Shown piece by piece: positions 1,648 through 28,783 of a DNA stretch of 29,793 bases. The notes beneath the pieces are model-generated. The model saw nothing but the letters and a program-made list of their open reading frames with translations. It made no database searches and had not been told where the DNA came from. Position numbers and translations under genes: made by a program. The DNA lies in the IMG/VR virus record IMGVR_UViG_3300030104_004584, positions 1 through 29,793 of that record; one strand, given 5' to 3'. Each line of letters begins with the position of its first letter. Position 1 is the stretch's first letter. The DNA is from a virus.

Positions 1648-1655
1648 GATAAATA
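1648..1655 (+). promoter_or_regulatory. NATAAATA octamer, predicted leaderless start
   Basis: GATAAATA is followed by TTAGT and then ATG. With T4-late geometry (initiation 6 nt after the last base of the octamer) the first transcribed base would be the A of the start codon at 1661. There is no Shine-Dalgarno. The same 5-nt spacing recurs at 10020-10014. Confidence 0.6.
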
Positions 1656-1660
1656 TTAGT

Positions 1661-1909
1661 ATGGATCATAATGAGTTTAATATAAAAGGTTTAGAACAAC
1701 ACACACCTTTAGTAACGCAAAAGATGGACGTTGGTATGAACATAATAAAGAATCAACACGCAAGATTGATTGGGGACTTTTTAGATTGTATAATGAAACA
1801 AAGACAATTGGAAAGACGCATAAGAGAAATAGAATATCACTTTCAATTCCTACCACCTTTTATATTTGAAATAGATGATGGAGATAACAACACGCAAACA
1901 AGGAGATAA
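1661..1909 (+). CDS. Hypothetical protein, 82 aa, probably leaderless
   Basis: Not recognised. The start at 1661 has no ribosome binding site but lies exactly 5 nt after an octamer, so translation from a leaderless mRNA is inferred; the in-frame ATG at 1724 also lacks a site and would remove 21 residues. The central part (HARLIGDFLDCIMKQRQLER, then RIREIEYHF) should form one long helix, ending in an FLPPFIFEIDD segment. It is followed one base after its stop by the 1911 gene, whose ribosome binding site lies inside this gene. Confidence 0.65.
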   Translation: MDHNEFNIKGLEQHTPLVTQKMDVGMNIIKNQHARLIGDFLDCIMKQRQLERRIREIEYHFQFLPPFIFEIDDGDNNTQTRR

Positions 1910-6308: not shown

Positions 6309-7766
6309 ATTTAATGTAGATATTTTGGAAACTGTGCCGTTATTCATCATAGTAGTTGATTGTATTGCAGGGATTCTTGTGATATCTACCATTGGTTCTG
6401 GTAAGTGAGATATAGCTTCAGCTACAGCATCTATGTGGTCATCGTGTTTATTATTTGGAAAGTCCTCAAGCTCTTCCATAAAGTCTTTTCTATCTAACAC
6501 ACGCTGATGTATATACAACCTACCTATTTTAATAATTGGTTCAAGTGTTTGTGCTATAAACACTTTCTTGTTTTTGCTTCTAAACTTATTAACAAATGTG
6601 ATTTTTCTTTTCATTTCTTTGCATATTCTACGTGCTTCATTTATTAGTGATGCACTAAAGTTTTCCTCAATAAACACAGTTCCTATTCCATATCTTGCAC
6701 ACGCATTTATGATTTGTTGTATCTGTCTAGTAAAGTCTTTAGTATCTTTATCAACAGCATCCAAACGTATAACATCGTGTATAAACACATTACCTTGTTC
6801 ATCACGCATTACTACAGCAAATACTGATCTATCACGTGCATACATTCCTGAAGCTGGATCCCAAGCACCTGCCATACGTCTTATGTTTGGAGCATCTTTT
6901 TTATCACCAAGTCTAACAACTGGTAAGTATCCACCAAAAGGTTGTGCTAAATGATGCACCATAATTTCTTCACTGTATTTGTGCAGTTGATCTAACTGCA
7001 TTAATGGTTCATATGTTTTACTTGGTATTAATAGCATCTGTGATTTAAAGTCACCTTCAGTAGATTCATTACGCATTCTTTCCAAAGCGTCCCAACTAAA
7101 GTGTCCATCAGGATGATCACCCCAAGCAAGTTCTTGTGTATCTGGATTATATACTGGTATCTTTTTAATAGCATATCCAACATTAATCAAATGATCATAT
7201 AGTGATTCACTGCTGTGTGGAGTTCCGCACATTAATATATTGGGTGCCATTTTACTAAATTCAGACACACGTTCTTTAATTCTATCACGTGCATCTTTAG
7301 TAATGCTGTTATCAGAAACTTCCAAGTCATCACCAATAATCAAGTCAGCGTGTAATCCAGTATATGACGCAACTAAACTAGTAACTGCAACACTTGGATT
7401 CAAACTGATTATATCACGTTCAACAGTAAAGTTTTGCACCTGCCATTGATTCAATTCTTTTTTCAAATGTGATGTAAGTGGATTGGATTCTATTATAGAA
7501 CGGATCATTAGTGAGTTCCGTAGTGCCACATTTCTTTTTGCACTAATAACAATGCAAGTAAAGTTTGGATTCATAAGCAAACGCCACACTACATACAAAC
7601 AAGTCAAGTGTGATTTACCTGCGTATCTAAATACTTGCAATATACGTCTTGGGTTTGATTGGGTTTGTTCTAACCAATCAGCCATTTCAATATGTATCTG
7701 TGGTGTGGTTCTACCGTCTAATAGATTTTGACAATCCACAAATTCGCGGAATGGTATATATTGCAT
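6300..7766 (-). CDS. terL: Terminase large subunit, 488 aa
   Basis: This is the DNA packaging motor with ATPase and nuclease domains. The ATPase has an A motif FRYAGKS (46-52), a B motif LIIGDD (142-147, second Asp replaces the usual Glu) and the coupling motif GTP (181-183). The RNase H-like nuclease shows the expected acidic residues: Asp303 in AWDPASG, Glu367 in FIEENF and Asp443/Asp446 in KHDDHIDAV. The DD instead of DE in the B motif occurs in some podovirus terminases and is worth noting. The length is close to that of marine podovirus homologues and shorter than T7 gp19 (586 aa). The start follows AAGGAT and lies 4 nt after the stop of the small-terminase candidate. Confidence 0.93.
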   Translation of the reverse strand: MQYIPFREFVDCQNLLDGRTTPQIHIEMADWLEQTQSNPRRILQVFRYAGKSHLTCLYVVWRLLMNPNFTCIVISAKRNVALRNSLMIRSIIESNPLTSHLKKELNQWQVQNFTVERDIISLNPSVAVTSLVASYTGLHADLIIGDDLEVSDNSITKDARDRIKERVSEFSKMAPNILMCGTPHSSESLYDHLINVGYAIKKIPVYNPDTQELAWGDHPDGHFSWDALERMRNESTEGDFKSQMLLIPSKTYEPLMQLDQLHKYSEEIMVHHLAQPFGGYLPVVRLGDKKDAPNIRRMAGAWDPASGMYARDRSVFAVVMRDEQGNVFIHDVIRLDAVDKDTKDFTRQIQQIINACARYGIGTVFIEENFSASLINEARRICKEMKRKITFVNKFRSKNKKVFIAQTLEPIIKIGRLYIHQRVLDRKDFMEELEDFPNNKHDDHIDAVAEAISHLPEPMVDITRIPAIQSTTMMNNGTVSKISTLNDK

Positions 7767-7770
7767 TAAA

Positions 7771-8133
7771 CTAATCCTTGTTAGTTTTTAGCTCTACGAT
7801 TTCTGCTTGTTGTTTAACCTGTTCAGTTATTCTTGCTTTTGCTTTTGCTAATAAATCGTCTGCTTCTTTTTTAGCCAATTTATTTTTTGCAGTTTGTGAT
7901 GATGGTATAACACCTGCAATATGTTGTGCTAAAGTTTTTAACAATGCTAAATGGGCCTTACGTGCATTTACAGTAAAAGTTGTTTTTTTAATGTAATGCG
8001 GGTCATCTGTTTTAGGCCAAGCCGCATCTGAAAATAGTTCGTGTGCGTGTGATACTTCACTGTCAAAGTATTGTTTAGCCAAATCTTTTAATATGTTTGT
8101 GTATTCTAGTGCTTCATCTTTTTTGTCTGTCAT
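7771..8133 (-). CDS. Probable terminase small subunit, 120 aa
   Basis: Its place directly upstream of the large subunit, 4 nt away, and its small helical character suggest the DNA-recognition subunit of packaging. The sequence is weak evidence on its own: a helical N terminus (EYTNILKDLAKQYFDSEVSH), a central ARKAHLALLKTLAQHIAGVI helix and a basic coiled-coil-like C terminus (LLAKAKARITEQVKQQAEIV) suited to oligomerisation. No helix-turn-helix can be assigned with certainty. The ribosome binding site is AAGGAAA. Upstream lies a long structured leader (8164-8241) and an exact TATAAATA octamer on the minus strand at 8302-8295. Confidence 0.65.
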   Translation of the reverse strand: MTDKKDEALEYTNILKDLAKQYFDSEVSHAHELFSDAAWPKTDDPHYIKKTTFTVNARKAHLALLKTLAQHIAGVIPSSQTAKNKLAKKEADDLLAKAKARITEQVKQQAEIVELKTNKD

Positions 8134-8163: not shown

Positions 8164-8241
8164 GTGGGTGTTAGTTGCTTATGCCATTAGTTCTTATAGA
8201 TAATATACATAGTCCAAGGAGAACTACAACTAACATCCCAC
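8164..8241 (-). other. Long structured leader of the terminase operon
   Basis: GTGGGTGTTAGTTG (8164-8177) pairs with the 15-nt CAACTAACATCCCAC (8227-8241) with one bulged base. Inside, TAGTTCT (8188-8194) pairs with AGAACTA (8220-8226). The result is a two-part stem in the leader of a minus-strand transcript from the octamer at 8302. It may control translation or stability of the terminase message. Confidence 0.45.
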
Positions 8242-8288
8242 AATACACGCAATTTAGGAGCAAAATTAACTATGTCAAATTAACTTTG

Positions 8289-8303
8289 CATAAGTATTTA
8301 TAC
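8289..8303. promoter_or_regulatory. Divergent octamer pair, terminase and oxygenase
   Basis: The minus strand carries an exact TATAAATA (8302-8295) followed by CTTATG, facing the terminase operon. The plus strand carries CATAAGTA (8289-8296, one base from the consensus) facing the oxygenase gene at 8329. The two overlap by two bases, so both directions may compete for one bound complex. Confidence 0.5.
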
Positions 8304-8897: not shown

Positions 8898-9152
8898 CTA
8901 TACTTGTCGTATATCAAAATCAACAGAGTTAAACATCTTATTCATTTTTTTAGCAAGATTAATTGCACTTCCTTTTTGTGCAAAAGCAACACGTTCATAC
9001 TTACGTATTGGATCGTGTTCAGATGTTCTTCTTATAGTAACGGGTTTGAATTGATATGTTAATATCCACATTACTGTAGGTTCGCAAACTGTAAATGTAA
9101 AGCCCAAATCATTTGTAGTAGATAGTAGTGATTTAACTTCTGGTTTCGCCAT
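8898..9152 (-). CDS. Hypothetical protein, 84 aa
   Basis: Not recognised. The start has an excellent AAGGAG site inside the end of the glycosyltransferase gene and overlaps it by 20 nt, so it is probably co-translated with it. The sequence has beta-like segments (LGFTFTVCEPTVMWILTYQF; PVTIRRTSE) followed by an amphipathic helix (SAINLAKKMNKMF). The alternating pattern suggests a small alpha/beta fold with no membrane segment. A role linked to the glycosyltransferase is suggested only by the overlap. Confidence 0.7.
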   Translation of the reverse strand: MAKPEVKSLLSTTNDLGFTFTVCEPTVMWILTYQFKPVTIRRTSEHDPIRKYERVAFAQKGSAINLAKKMNKMFNSVDFDIRQV

Positions 9153-10014
9153 TTGTTTCTCCTTCTATTTTAAACATATTTGTTATATCTCCTGCATATA
9201 CATAACTTCCTTGATGTTGCAAATGTATTCTTGGATCCATCCAAATTTTTATATTTTGTTTTTGACATAGTCTTGCAAAAAAATAATCTTCAGATAGATA
9301 TCGTTTTGATTTTTTAATATGGCTTAATACACCTTGTCCTTCAATGCCTGTGTCAAACAATGCATATAGATGATCCGCCCATTTTGTATTAACAGCTTCA
9401 ACATCATTTTCATATTTCAATTGTGGATATGCTTTAATTAATTTTTCAATTGCTTTACGTGTTATCAACATAAATCCTGTTCCAGGATCCAACACTTCTA
9501 GTAATCCACGATTGTTCAATGTTAATGTTTGTTGTGCTAAATTGATTACAAAGTTATCATTGTGTAGTTCAATAGTTTTTGGATCAGTGTGTCCATCTTT
9601 TATTGCACGTATTATACTTGGCCACTTAATTGCTTTTTTAGGATATGCACCACATATAACATCAATGTCTTTATCCATTGTATCCCACAGCATTTTTATA
9701 ATATAGTCACCTCTAAATCCAATGTCTGAATCAATAAACATTAGATGAGTTGCTTTTGGGTTTGCTAAAAACATAGCAACGCAAATGTTTCTTGCTCTAG
9801 TAACCAAACTATCATTAGTAACTGTAGATGTGTGCATAGGTATCCCCGCACTTGATAGTGTTCCAATTGTAGCCATCATTGCTCTATGATATAAATCATT
9901 ATACAATCCACCAAATGCTGGTGTGGCTATTTGTATTTCATATTTTTGTTCTCGTAATTTTTCTAAATCAATCTGTATAGGTTGATCCATTAGTTCTTTA
10001 AATTTATTAACCAT
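9133..10014 (-). CDS. GT-A-type glycosyltransferase, 293 aa, probably leaderless
   Basis: The protein looks like a GT-A fold sugar transferase. The donor and metal site is D95-S-D97 in HLMFIDSDIGF, preceded by a DSLVTRARNICVAMFL helix (about 68-83) that matches phage glycosyltransferases using nucleotide sugars; a late SEDYFFARLCQKQNIKIWMD segment fits the acceptor-side part. The target could be phage DNA, virion or host surface sugar. The ATG at 10014 lies exactly 5 nt after an octamer on the minus strand and has no Shine-Dalgarno, so a leaderless mRNA is predicted; an in-frame GTG at 10041 would lie upstream of the predicted transcription start and also lacks a site. The next gene is coupled by overlap. 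Confidence 0.8.
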   Translation of the reverse strand: MVNKFKELMDQPIQIDLEKLREQKYEIQIATPAFGGLYNDLYHRAMMATIGTLSSAGIPMHTSTVTNDSLVTRARNICVAMFLANPKATHLMFIDSDIGFRGDYIIKMLWDTMDKDIDVICGAYPKKAIKWPSIIRAIKDGHTDPKTIELHNDNFVINLAQQTLTLNNRGLLEVLDPGTGFMLITRKAIEKLIKAYPQLKYENDVEAVNTKWADHLYALFDTGIEGQGVLSHIKKSKRYLSEDYFFARLCQKQNIKIWMDPRIHLQHQGSYVYAGDITNMFKIEGETNGETRS

Positions 10015-10019
10015 ACATT

Positions 10020-10034
10020 TATTTATGCTAAATA
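10020..10034. promoter_or_regulatory. Divergent octamers, glycosyltransferase and 10067 gene
   Basis: The minus strand carries CATAAATA (10027-10020) followed by AATGT and ATG. The plus strand carries the variant GCTAAATA (10027-10034), facing the gene at 10067. The two share one base, so this is a back-to-back control site. Confidence 0.55.
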
Positions 10035-10066
10035 TATACACTTAATAAAAAAGGAGAAAAATTTTA

Positions 10067-10618
10067 ATGGCAAAAATTACATATTACACATCTGCAAAAC
10101 AATTAGACGACTCGTGCAAGGCAGGGTTCGCTGGCAGAATGACTACATTTGAAACTTGCGGAATTGATAAAACACAAACAGAAAATAGACAACCTATTAA
10201 TGCTCAAGTTGTTGATTTACCTACAACTGATATCATATTAGCAGAAGCTATTGCAGTTCAAATGGCATTGGAACACGGACTAGATTTGGGTGCAAATGCT
10301 GGAACACGTATTAGTGTTTGGGTTGGACAAGAAAAAACTTTAGAAATTATTCAAAATGATTTAGCTGGTAGAGAGGATAACTTTGATGGTGTTACTAATG
10401 AAGTTATACAAACTATTAGAGGACATTTAACAAAGTTAGGTAGAAAAAAAACTTGGCCTATAGTGCAAATGAGAACTAATCAAAATTCTATATCAAGTGA
10501 GATAACTGAAGCAGTTGGAAACACAGCACAACAAGTTGAAACTCAAGAAGCAAAGCCAATTGAAAGTCCATTGACTATTGTTGCTAAATTAAGAGAGTCT
10601 AGAAAGAACAAGGTTTAG
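10067..10618 (+). CDS. Hypothetical protein, 183 aa
   Basis: Not recognised. A strong AAAGGAG lies upstream and the gene is read from the divergent octamer site at 10027. The middle part (DIILAEAIAVQMALEHGLDL, then RISVWVGQEKTLEIIQNDLA) recalls the helix-strand-helix of RNase H-like folds, but the catalytic Asp and Glu pattern is missing, so I do not assign it. The C terminus (after about residue 140) is Gln/Glu-rich and ends in a basic segment (LTIVAKLRESRKNKV). It converges on and overlaps the 196-aa gene by 20 nt. Confidence 0.75.
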   Translation: MAKITYYTSAKQLDDSCKAGFAGRMTTFETCGIDKTQTENRQPINAQVVDLPTTDIILAEAIAVQMALEHGLDLGANAGTRISVWVGQEKTLEIIQNDLAGREDNFDGVTNEVIQTIRGHLTKLGRKKTWPIVQMRTNQNSISSEITEAVGNTAQQVETQEAKPIESPLTIVAKLRESRKNKV

Positions 10619-11496: not shown

Positions 11497-14334
11497 CTAA
11501 CTTTTATAAATTCTGGCTATATCAAATATACAAGAAGCATCAATACCAGTAGTAAATGTTCCACCTGTTGATTGTGATAATTGTATTTCCACATAATCAG
11601 TTGCAACCAAGTTTAACATCTTTGTAATTGCTAAAGATGTATTTGGATAATGTGCTGTTTGTGTAAAATTAATACTTCCATTTTTTAATATTTTTAAAGT
11701 CCATTGTTCGCCAGTTCCATATGCAGTATTACTTGCAATATTAATCATTGCATTAATCATATATACACCATTTTGTCCTGACGCCACAGTATATCTACCA
11801 ACGTTACTTGACGTGTCCATACCACTATGTGAGTCAGTTTGTGTGTTATTAAATGCAACGACAGTTGCAGTTGAGTTAGCAATTGTTTGTCCAGTTGTAG
11901 CAATTGTAGCCAAACATATTGGACCTGGTAATCCTTGATTGTAAGATTTTAAATCACTTACAGGAATTTGTTTTGTTGTAGTATTGTCAATAACAATAAT
12001 AGCATCATCATCAGCAAGTGTAATAGATGATGTTGATTTTGCTGATCCATCTAGTAAGTTTAGTTCTGCGGCAGTTGATCCAACTGTTGTTCCACCTAAT
12101 ATTAATCCACTATTTGGCGCTCTAACAGCCGTATCTGCATTAATAGTTCCAGCAACGTCAAGTGTGTAATCAGGTGTATCATCTAAAATTCCAACTCTTT
12201 CATTTGCGGCATCCACTCTTACTAAATTATTATTTGTGTCACCATCAATTCTAAAGTCCATATCTTTCTTACCACTATTAAAGTGTATGATATCACCTTT
12301 AAATTCTGCTACAGTATTATGACTTCTGTCACCATTTGGCACACACGTGATTCTAAAGTATCCACCAATATTACCAGCTGTTGCATTACCATAACCATCG
12401 TGACTTGAACCATTGTGATCACCATCAGCTACAAAATAACAAGCCGCACTTGTTTGATTATAAGCGGCTCCATTCCAACCTGATGCATAAAATCCACCTA
12501 AAAAGTCATCATCTTCTGATGCGGCATCACTTGAGTCTGAGTTTGATTTTACAAACCAAACGTTTGAAAATTGATTACCATCACTTTTTTGTTTAATGGC
12601 CAATGTTGCCCAGTTATCGTGTGTAGTTGTAATTTGTAATCCACCGTTGTATAATAAGGCGTGGTCAGCTGTATCTGTGTTTCCAATTGATACTGGGTTA
12701 TTAAAGTGATGGACTCCTCCACCCCAACTCCAGTTTCCTTCTGGTCCATAGTTACCTGTTGCACCTGTTTGTGCAGTTTTTAATAATATATCAGCGTTTG
12801 TTCCACCTCCAACTATACTTGTATTAATTGTTGGACTAGTAAGTGTTTTGTTTGTAAGTGTTTCACTTCCTGTTAAAGAAACAAAGCTATCACTTTGTAA
12901 TGCTGTGTTAAATTCTGCTAATGACCCAGTTAAACTGTTACCAGTTCCACCAAGGTCAAATGTTTTGTTTGTAAGGGTATCGGTCGTTGCTCTTCCAACA
13001 AGTGTGTCTGTTGAAGTTGGTAATGTAAGTGTTCCAGTGTTTGAAATACTTGCTATCACTGGTGTTGTAAGTGTTTTGTTTGTAAGTGTGTCTGTGCTTG
13101 ATTCTGTTACAACTGTATTATCAATGTTTAATGTGTATGTTCCTGAACCATCATCATATACTTTATCTAATCCTGTTCCAGCAACAACCAAAGCATTTAC
13201 TCTGTCATCAACTCTTTCATCTGTATAATACTTGTTTGATGATCCTTCTGGTAATTGATCTGTGTCTGTTGCATTTAAATTTGTTACAAAATTAACTGAT
13301 GTTAGTGCTGATGCTAGTTCAAATCTGCTACTAGAAGCATTCCAAGATAATATTTGTCCTGCTGTTGCTCCATTACTAACTACATCACTTAATGCATTAA
13401 TAGATGTTGTTGCTACTCTGGCATCAATGGCTGTGTTTGCTCTTGCAACTGTGTAGTATAAGTTTGTGCCTTCTGTAACGTGTGTAGTTATTTGTGTTTC
13501 ATTTCCAAATTTTCCACCTGCTGAATCATATTTTAATACTTGATTATCCTGCGGACTTGCTATTGTAACATCAGTTAGTCCATTTAATGCAGTTGCTATA
13601 ATGGCATTAACTTCTAAATCACCATTTGAATCAAAGTTTAATACTTTGTTTGCTCTGTCTGTTTTGTTTGGAATAGTTAATGATGCACTAACTTCGCCAT
13701 TAGCGTGGAAAGAAGCTGTGTCATAGTGTGATAATTTCAATGTTATATCATTGTCCATTTTATTATCTCTTGCAACAATGTTTAAATTATCAAAACTTGA
13801 GTTGAATGTTGCGGCACTAATAGCACCACCATTGCTAAAATCTGCAGTTCTGCTTGGTGTTCTATCTGAAAATATTGCAACTTTAACACCTGTTCCAGGT
13901 GCTGTTCTATATGAAACTGTGCCTGTTGAAGCTGTGTCATCAGTAGTATCATTTATTTCATATGCAGTTCCACCCGCTGAAAATGTTACAGTTGGTGAAG
14001 TTGTATATCCAGAACCTCCAGCTGTAACTGTTATTCCAGTTACTACGCCAGAACTAATAGTTGCTGTTGCTGTAGCACTTGATCCACCGCCACCAGATAT
14101 TGTAACTGTTGGTGCTACTGTATATCCAGTTCCACCTGAACCCACTGCTATGGCTGATACTGCTCCTGATGATATTGAAGCTGTTGCAACTGCTTTAGTT
14201 CCAAGTGTTTGCAAAGTTTCGTCATTATAAACTGTTATGTCATTAACAGACATTATTTCAAAATTAAAAGGATAATCTTTTGTTGAATTATTACCCGTGT
14301 AAAATATTCTAGATGTTGTGCTTGATACTGCCAT
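11497..14334 (-). CDS. Tail fibre protein, 945 aa
   Basis: This is the host-recognition fibre. The N terminus resembles the T7 gp17 virion-attachment domain ([20 protein letters not shown] at about 11-30, and a later [20 protein letters not shown] and [20 protein letters not shown]). It is interrupted by two Gly-rich repeats, [17 protein letters not shown] (68-84) and [16 protein letters not shown] (107-122). The shaft carries repeated [14 protein letters not shown]-like units, common in phage fibres. The C-terminal region is beta-rich ([33 protein letters not shown]) and resembles trimeric C1q/TNF-like heads, though this is tentative. An octamer (14362-14355) and AAGGAAAG precede the start. 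Confidence 0.88.
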
Positions 14335-14354: not shown

Positions 14355-14362
14355 TATTTATC
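14355..14362 (-). promoter_or_regulatory. NATAAATA octamer upstream of tail fibre
   Basis: On the minus strand GATAAATA followed by TTATGG lies 20 nt before the ATG at 14334. It falls in the 38-bp gap after the 1071-aa gene. It would give the fibre and holin-like genes their own transcript. Confidence 0.65.
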
Positions 14363-25584: not shown

Positions 25585-26181
25585 TTAGCCTCTTACTATG
25601 TATGCTCCTTGATGAGCTCTAATTAATGATCCTGGACCAACAATAGTTTTAGCTGGTTCTTCTTGACCATCACTAATTCTTGCTTGTCTTAATTTGTTTT
25701 GGAATTCATTATATAGACGCTCGTGTATTGAGCCTATACCAGTAAGTGCTTCAGACATTTCAAATGCCAATTTTGCGACTAAACATTCTGTAAAGTATGC
25801 AGGAAAGTCTGCTTCATCCTGTTCTTTAATATAAACTAAATTTGCTACAGCAAAATTTGTATATACTTTATCATCTTCAACGCTATAGTTTTCATCATAA
25901 TTTCCATTTGCATCAAATATTCCTAATACTTTTACAATGCTTGATGGAAGTTGATAAACATAGTCATAATTTTTATCTAAAATTGTTTGTGATAATTGTG
26001 CTAATGCAACTTTAGTAGTTGCAAAATTCCAGTTTGCATAACTAAACAAAGTCGTAGTTACCGTGTCATACATATTTGAAACTACTTGTGCCTCTCTAGT
26101 ATTTGCAGTAAAACTAGTTATTGGACCTGCACCAAGTCTAATTAACGCCATTGAAGCTATTTTTTCTTTAGTCATTGCCAT
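25585..26181 (-). CDS. Tail tubular protein A (gp11-like), 198 aa
   Basis: This adaptor joins portal and nozzle. The size (198 aa; T7 gp11 is 196) and the sequence fit: an N-terminal KIASMALIRLGAGPITSFTA segment, the RLGA turn typical of this family, YDTVTTTLFSYANWNFAT and the LYNEFQNKLRQARISDGQEE end. An exact TATAAATA octamer lies 28 nt upstream, so tail genes may be transcribed separately from the capsid. The start at 26181 follows GGAGAT. Confidence 0.9.
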   Translation of the reverse strand: MAMTKEKIASMALIRLGAGPITSFTANTREAQVVSNMYDTVTTTLFSYANWNFATTKVALAQLSQTILDKNYDYVYQLPSSIVKVLGIFDANGNYDENYSVEDDKVYTNFAVANLVYIKEQDEADFPAYFTECLVAKLAFEMSEALTGIGSIHERLYNEFQNKLRQARISDGQEEPAKTIVGPGSLIRAHQGAYIVRG

Positions 26182-26209: not shown

Positions 26210-26217
26210 TATTTATA
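26210..26217 (-). promoter_or_regulatory. Exact TATAAATA octamer upstream of tail genes
   Basis: On the minus strand TATAAATA followed by TAGATATAG lies 28 nt before the tail tubular A start. Its first three bases belong to the 3' arm of the hairpin at 26215-26241. It would separate transcription of tail genes from that of capsid. Confidence 0.65.
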
Positions 26218-28407: not shown

Positions 28408-28421
28408 CATAAATATTTATG
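28408..28421. promoter_or_regulatory. Palindromic bidirectional octamer site
   Basis: CATAAATATTTATG is a perfect 14-bp palindrome and holds an exact NATAAATA on each strand. The plus strand faces the HNH gene at 28436 (14 nt after it) and the minus strand faces the small-gene block at 28241. Both directions can be served from one site. Confidence 0.6.
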
Positions 28422-28435
28422 CAGAGAGAGGCATT

Positions 28436-28783
28436 ATGGCAAAAAGAAAGAATCGTCCTACGATATCAAATTGGACACAAGCAATATTTAAAAGACAGAT
28501 ACGCAAAAACAAACGTGGTTGTTGGATATGGCAACGTTGCAGATCAACGGCAGGTTACGGCATATTGAGATACGACAATCGTAACTGGTTAGCCCACCGT
28601 TATGCTGTGTTGTTGTTCAAACTGGCTACGCCACGCAAACTAGAACGTAGTGTTGTATTGCACACCTGCGACAACGGACACGGTGGTTGCGTCAATCCCA
28701 AGCACTTACAGGTAGGCACACAGCAACAGAACGTAACGGATATGAAGCGTAAAGGTCGTATGCGACATCCCAAACAACAATAG
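28436..28783 (+). CDS. HNH endonuclease, 115 aa
   Basis: The protein is a small HNH nuclease of the homing/AP2-linked type often called HNH_3. Motifs are CWIW (29-32), YGILRY, the LAHR-Y segment, VLHTCDN (74-80; His76, Asp79), CVNPKHL (85-91; Asn87, His90) and GTQQQNVTDMKRKG with Asn99. The basic N terminus (AKRKNRPTIS) would bind DNA. A free-standing homing role is typical, but in phages related HNH proteins also assist packaging. It is read from the palindromic octamer and is isolated by an adjacent 1-kb gene-free stretch, so transfer is plausible. Confidence 0.9.
   Translation: MAKRKNRPTISNWTQAIFKRQIRKNKRGCWIWQRCRSTAGYGILRYDNRNWLAHRYAVLLFKLATPRKLERSVVLHTCDNGHGGCVNPKHLQVGTQQQNVTDMKRKGRMRHPKQQ

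Follow-up and report, generated by a model that had tools for sequence, protein, structure and literature searches.

A late-promoter box five bases before the start codon of a podovirus glycosyltransferase-like gene suggests leaderless late mRNAs in marine phages

The DNA analysed here, hereafter the window, is a stretch of 29,793 nucleotides that covers positions 1 to 29,793 of the IMG/VR virus record IMGVR_UViG_3300030104_004584. On its minus strand, positions 10027 to 10012 read CATAAATA-AATGT-ATG, so that an AT-rich box stands five nucleotides before the start codon of a glycosyltransferase-like gene. On the plus strand, positions 1648 to 1663 read GATAAATA-TTAGT-ATG, with the ATG at 1661. 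Both sites were read directly from the window, and the first is exactly as described in an earlier note on this DNA, which had also recognized that the two gaps are equal. Inspection of the upstream sequence revealed no Shine-Dalgarno-like stretch before the ATG at 10014 or 1661, in agreement with what the note had said of the former. The features of the two sites are as follows.

9133..10014, minus strand: glycosyltransferase-like gene, 293 aa (phrog_1574, 1.1e-43; phrog_34859, 1.2e-8; PF13506)
10012..10014, minus strand: ATG start, with transcription predicted to begin on its A (+1); homologues align from Met 1, and a pyrimidine-purine step peaks at the same offset in 40/53 other clade sites
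10015..10019, minus strand: gap AATGT, 5 nt, predicted -5 to -1; in relatives its sequence varies (TTTGC, ATTGT) and its length of 5 is kept
10020..10027, minus strand: putative late-promoter box CATAAATA, of the NATAAATA type, predicted -13 to -6; matches NATAAATA of S-PM2 (PMC2984593) and TATAAATA of T4 (PMC2988020)
10028..10034, plus strand: variant box CTAAATA in divergent orientation, abutting the minus-strand box and 32 nt before the ATG at 10067
10050..10056, plus strand: Shine-Dalgarno-like AAAGGAG of the divergent gene
10067..10618, plus strand: divergent gene, 183 aa, predicted RNase H-like fold (AlphaFold pLDDT 70; Foldseek matches to RNase H1)
1648..1655, plus strand: second box, GATAAATA, with a 5-nt gap; geometry matched in contig G009 before a short, possibly related ORF
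1661..1909, plus strand: small gene, 82 aa, predicted leaderless start, without a PHROG or Pfam match

The window is part of a podovirus genome and encodes a T7-type connector, a terminase, a major head protein, and tail proteins. It shares with podoviruses the connector between head and tail (PF12236), the T7-type domain of the terminase, and the tail families phrog_376 and phrog_394, and it is distantly related to pelagiphages and to methylophage MEP301. We rejected the idea that it belongs to a T4-like phage because the terminase, connector, capsid, and tail genes are all of the podovirus type. Contigs of the same clade were collected via the terminase and via the gene at 10067; among genome contigs, no terminase relatives were found.

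The earlier note had called the minus-strand gene a glycosyltransferase. By profile it is glycosyltransferase-like, through a phrog_34859 match over residues 46-221 and a PF13506 match of 25.3 bits over a short stretch (cutoff, 21.7), and its activity is predicted. The note had also proposed that orthologues be compared for a conserved start at 10014, and this is borne out: five homologues, the window's included, align from the first methionine. One could still suppose that the box is a promoter and that translation truly begins at an internal ATG at 9990, the first codons serving as a short leader. There is indeed an in-frame ATG 24 nt downstream (29 nt from the box), with a weak AAAGA before it. 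Yet in homologues that have clear ribosome sites the first codon is the one that matches 10014 in the alignment, the stretch encoded between the two ATGs agrees with the N-terminal pattern of the homologues and has an invariant proline just after it, and the GenBank starts of phage HTVC008M agree with the 5-nt geometry. We therefore regard an internal start as very unlikely. Across the glycosyltransferase family, a box at 5 nt was found in only 2 of 80 relatives from viral contigs, and since both are of this clade, the 5-nt box is a trait of the clade rather than of the gene family. T4-like cyanophages carry relatives of both the 2OG-oxygenase gene and the glycosyltransferase gene.

On the other side of the minus-strand box, six relatives (G013, G014, G018, G019, G023, and G024) carry ATAAATA where the window has the variant CTAAATA. 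The divergent gene at 10067 was considered as a possible transcription factor, a candidate that we rejected because its structural model resembles RNase H. The first 40 codons of this gene (10067-10186) are nearly identical to those of four subclade relatives, with 112-116 of 120 nt the same; among the 38-40 codons that encode the same residue, 4-7 synonymous changes are seen. Over codons 61-100, identity is about 60%. Such near-identity could reflect recombination or constraint at the DNA level.

The search with the gene at 10067 yielded 13 relative loci, one of which (L015) is nearly identical to the window and several others of which are near-duplicates. At eight of these 13 loci the box lies exactly 5 nt before an ATG, with gaps of AATGT, TTTGC, or ATTGT; five of the eight precede the glycosyltransferase gene (L015-L019), and three precede an unrelated 107-aa ORF (L024-L026). 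The remaining five have a longer leader of 17-20 nt with GGAG-type ribosome sites. Thus, leaderless-type relatives lack a Shine-Dalgarno site before the start, whereas leadered relatives have one. The conserved spacing that the earlier note anticipated was found in part, holding exactly in eight of 13 relatives and giving way to a leader in the other five; a ribosome site, present in these five only, is not a conserved feature of the orthologues, and the pattern that the note had named as refuting its reading, a start at 10041 or a conserved ribosome site, did not appear. One pair of contigs differs in a telling place. G021 reads GATAAATATTTGC-ATG and G010 reads GATAAATATTTGC-AGGAGAACTCAA-ATG, the two being identical from TTTAGCG through TTTGC, after which one has ATG and the other AGGAGAACTCAAATG, so that the 12-nt difference begins exactly at the predicted +1. 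In three contigs (G018, G019, and G024), the unrelated 107-aa ORF occupies the slot of the glycosyltransferase gene and the arrangement of box, 5 nt, and ATG is kept (L054 7282-7617, L033 2132-2467).

What would a box at this distance imply for transcription? The late promoter of T4 is described as an 8-bp box that lies roughly one helical turn ahead of the start and has no accompanying -35 element; the box begins at -13 and ends at -6, so that +1 falls six bases after it (PMC2988020). For S-PM2 the late promoter is given as NATAAATA, with a free first base (PMC2984593). The box of the window's clade is close to TATAAATA, reading NATAAATA with any base at -13. If it is used in the same manner as that of T4, then a 5-nt gap would place +1 on the A of the ATG.

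Other features of the clade sites point in the same direction. Across 56 dereplicated sites there is no conservation in the -35 region, the information content nowhere exceeding 0.32 bit between -58 and -14. A pyrimidine-purine step, which is typical of transcription start sites, occurs at the predicted +1 in 40 of the 53 dereplicated sites of the clade that remain when the 5-nt class is left out, compared to 0-26 at the 15 other offsets. In HTVC008M the predicted +1 likewise has the highest count of the offsets listed (9/15). The margin is narrow in Mosig (12/26 versus 11 at another offset) and in T4 (13/34 versus 12 one offset earlier), and neither P-SSM2 nor Syn9 has a clear peak there. The likeness to the T4 late promoter (TATAAATA, which gp55 reads together with gp33 and gp45) thus consists of a single box, the lack of a -35 element, AT-rich sequence downstream, and a predicted +1 six bases after the box. 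T4 differs from the clade in that none of its 26 box-ATG pairs is at 5 nt, the closest being 12, while the clade lacks a detectable gp55 and accepts any base at -13. The cyanomyovirus late promoter of S-PM2 and Syn9 has the same box and free first base (PMC2984593), but none of the 13 pairs in Syn9 is at 5 nt.

Within the window, the pattern ATAAATAN5ATG occurs twice against an expectation of 0.42. The earlier note had argued that two like-spaced cases make chance less likely. Taken by itself that argument is weak, because 11 of 100 shuffled windows contain at least two copies and the pair alone is not significant. Nor is the bare box over-abundant in the window (14 seen versus 18.65 expected). 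It is the placement of the boxes, unlike the two-site count, that excludes chance: 13 of 14 lie outside CDS bodies, where only 11.1% of positions are free (binomial 5e-12), while 20 permuted 7-mers, pooled as a control, fall there in 72 of 435 cases (17%). Furthermore, when 28 related or distant contigs were searched for the pattern, all 10 matches were ORF starts, and the reversed pattern had 0 matches in the same contigs. Throughout the analysis, ORFs were greedy calls that took the first ATG, the Shine-Dalgarno test was a list of 4-mers, and contigs were dereplicated by simple mismatch counts. Three other boxes of the window illustrate the contrasting class, in which the distance to the gene is longer.

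14355..14362, minus strand: box with 20-nt spacing and a Shine-Dalgarno-like site, before the gene 11497-14334
26210..26217, minus strand: box with 28-nt spacing, before the tail-protein gene 25585-26181
28408..28415, plus strand: box with 20-nt spacing, before the HNH gene at 28436; overlaps an opposite-strand box (palindrome)

The last of these is part of the palindrome CATAAATATTTATG at 28408-28421, which yields two late-promoter boxes, one on each strand. A further box, TATAAATACTTATG, lies upstream of the terminase region on the minus strand (8200-8302) and has no nearby ORF start downstream. The stretch that follows it contains GCTCCTA and recurs in relatives; it is possibly a structured leader or a small RNA.

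The 5-nt class is not confined to the clade of the window. When one rule for pairing boxes with ATGs was applied to all genomes compared, 8 of 16 full-box pairs in HTVC008M and 6 of 26 in Mosig were at exactly 5 nt, against averages of 0.05 and 0.15, respectively, for permuted motifs. Counts were 0/26 in T4, 0/13 in Syn9, 0/10 in P-HM1, 0/5 in phiM12, 1/30 in P-SSM2, and 1/14 in P-RSM6. Among podoviruses there were 2/8 in the window, 1/6 in G002, 1/5 in G006, 0/4 in HTVC010P, and 0/2 in Hodr. With the shorter hexamer TAAATA, the numbers at 5 nt were 11 for HTVC008M, 6 for Mosig, 0 for T4, 0 for Syn9, 1 for P-HM1, 4 for P-SSM2, 0 for phiM12, and 2 for P-RSM6. The four cases in P-SSM2 (L123-L135), each with an exact 5-nt gap to a candidate ATG, compare with a mean of 0.5 for permutations, and there may be a weaker form of the class in cyanophages. 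For pairs at 5 nt, a score of "no Shine-Dalgarno" follows almost by construction, as the region scored was limited to the few bases downstream of the box. As for the nearest named podoviruses (Hodr, MEP301, and HTVC010P), we rejected ATAAATA as a gene-border motif, given that most copies have no close downstream gene start.

The pelagimyophages HTVC008M and Mosig EXVC030M therefore share the 5-nt class with the window, although they are T4-like myophages, HTVC008M with its own gp55, and the window comes from a T7-fold podovirus. In HTVC008M the class stands before annotated late genes. All eight of its full-box 5-nt sites coincide with GenBank starts, those of a 2OG oxygenase, CsgF, the DNA end protector, the tail tube cap, the tape measure, a baseplate wedge subunit, the baseplate wedge initiator, and a transcriptional regulator. 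The leaderless late geometry of this SAR11 myophage thus includes CsgF, a gene of curli assembly (L091 1763-2239; HTVC008M 7562-8038). Between HTVC008M and Mosig, the geometry is kept in two orthologue pairs, is 8 nt in one, and is absent in one. Specifically, it is kept for the DNA end protector at 39% identity and for the tail tube, where HTVC008M has the variant CTAAATA and where the identity of the gene is our reading of the protein; in Mosig, the spacing before the baseplate wedge gene is 8 nt, and the regulator lacks a box.

Conservation was then evaluated for the DNA end protector and the tail tube, which were picked since HTVC008M and Mosig showed the geometry there (exact or variant box), making these conservation tests rather than an unbiased sample of genes. 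Each orthologue set comprised the best 80 loci of a longer list of at least 600 stretches from viral contigs, and 2 of 80 in each were dropped for want of an ATG in reach, leaving 78. For the DNA end protector, the box was at 5 nt in 59 of these 78 loci, at 6-8 nt in 17 (predicted leaders of 1-3 nt), and absent in 2; after dereplication of the same best 80, 38 of 51 were at 5 nt. This count preferred a candidate ATG with a box at 5, but a recount from the nearest ATG also gave 59/78. No Shine-Dalgarno-like 4-mer was found at the 78 loci; in this set from the best 80, no permuted hexamer stood at 5 nt in more than 3 of 78, and the bases of the gap differ between loci. For the tail tube, 68 of 78 loci from the best 80 of the list were at 5 nt, 2 were at 7, and 8 had no box (3 of these 8 with a Shine-Dalgarno-like site); 40 of 47 were at 5 nt after dereplication. 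The orthologues of the two genes in T4, Syn9, P-HM1, P-SSM2, phiM12, and P-RSM6 had no 5-nt box where an ATG could be placed, three of the 12 phage-gene combinations being without a match and one without an ATG.

An argument can be made that a box beside an ATG is simply a chance event in an AT-rich genome, with transcription beginning at some upstream promoter and translation proceeding without a Shine-Dalgarno site. The base composition and the shuffled windows that reached two patterns (11/100) lend themselves to this view. Nevertheless, we consider it highly improbable: in relatives the spacing is exact while the gap sequence varies, the reversed control is empty in 28 contigs, permuted 7-mers average 0.05-0.15 in pelagimyophages, and 59/78 and 68/78 orthologous loci, from the best 80 of longer lists in each case, are at exactly 5. 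It is also most improbable that the AT-rich stretch is a translation enhancer, such as an S1 site, on an mRNA that begins elsewhere. Starts without a Shine-Dalgarno site do exist near boxes, since in P-SSM2 an SD-like site accompanies only 5 of the 29 pairs with a spacing of at least 12 nt. Yet permutations of ATAAATA do not give the signal, the same box is also found at distances of 15-45 nt from genes that have ribosome sites, and a pyrimidine-purine step resembling a start site follows it at a fixed offset.

Our preferred explanation is that the glycosyltransferase gene would be read from a T4-type late promoter with a single box, NATAAATA, at -13 to -6. With the box so near the gene, transcription would start on the A of the ATG and the mRNA would have no leader. 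A 70S ribosome would then start on the 5'-terminal AUG, as with other leaderless mRNAs, while promoters of a like type elsewhere in the genome would give ordinary leaders long enough for a Shine-Dalgarno site. Leader length would accordingly fall into two classes, near 0 or at least about 10 nt. The motif, its placement at gene borders, the conserved start, the two spacing classes, the pyrimidine-purine step, and the recurrence in marine phages are established by the sequences compared. From these, we infer that the promoter is active, that transcription starts at +1 as in T4, and that translation proceeds without a leader. Comparison with relatives thus favors the promoter role and the start at 10014 that the earlier note had predicted, and we consider the leaderless late-promoter explanation likely to be correct for this gene. 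By the same reasoning, the leaderless arrangement probably extends to essential genes of many T4-related ocean viruses.

Bacterial leaderless mRNAs are described as carrying their AUG at the 5' end or close to it, as lacking a Shine-Dalgarno site, and as being initiated by 70S ribosomes, which start on 5'-terminal AUGs (PMC9031893). The phage class resembles them in its lack of a Shine-Dalgarno site and would also have its AUG at the 5' end or close to it; unlike them, it is tied to a late promoter at a fixed geometry, as known here from sequence. Leaderless mRNAs and T4-type late promoters are each already known, and the new part is a leaderless late class of fixed geometry in marine phages. 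No report of leaderless T4-type late promoters was found in the literature searched, which covered few subscription journals.

What reads the box in the podovirus clade is a separate matter. Two contigs of about 32 kb, G002 and G006, look complete, having near-identical ends (138 nt at 98.6% and 124 nt at 99.2%, respectively, the overlap of G006 lying in a repetitive stretch). An integrase (phrog_1) is encoded by both and by eight further contigs of the clade, and tRNA-Thr(tgt) genes are present in 12 of 25 clade contigs. In both G002 (L045/L046) and G006 (L050/L051), a full tRNA-Thr(tgt) gene lies near the integrase. This is a small podovirus that looks temperate. Searching for its host via the tRNA-Thr attachment site gave 0 exact matches. 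Among the scanned proteins of the apparently complete genomes, no RNA polymerase or replication gene was recognized, and no polymerase or sigma family was found among those of the window and G002, a scan that left some small ORFs outside. Similarly, neither the T4 gp55 query nor a three-member profile found a gp55 in the clade (best E, 0.1), a search over 25 contigs that included the two apparently complete ones, while the T4 query finds the HTVC008M homologue at 5e-22. A podovirus without gp55 or an RNA polymerase of its own could depend for late expression on the late transcription machinery of a T4-like phage infecting the same cell, a form of promoter piracy. The two contigs of about 32 kb are compatible with this reading, as they encode an integrase and a tRNA-Thr gene besides genes for head and tail and give no gp55 match. 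We think it unlikely; a divergent factor of the phage's own or a host sigma factor reading the box is more likely.

If our explanation is true, then the T4-like phages of SAR11 and their relatives, viruses that are very abundant in the ocean, would express essential virion genes from leaderless mRNAs, and one rule would set them: box, five bases, ATG. Such a rule would fix start codons in gene calling. In a survey of pelagimyophages, the prediction of late promoters was reported as unsuccessful (PMC7029224), and looking for the box against the start codon offers a direct test where that prediction failed. More generally, the leaderless late class would raise the question of how a podovirus without a recognizable gp55 uses promoters of the T4 type.
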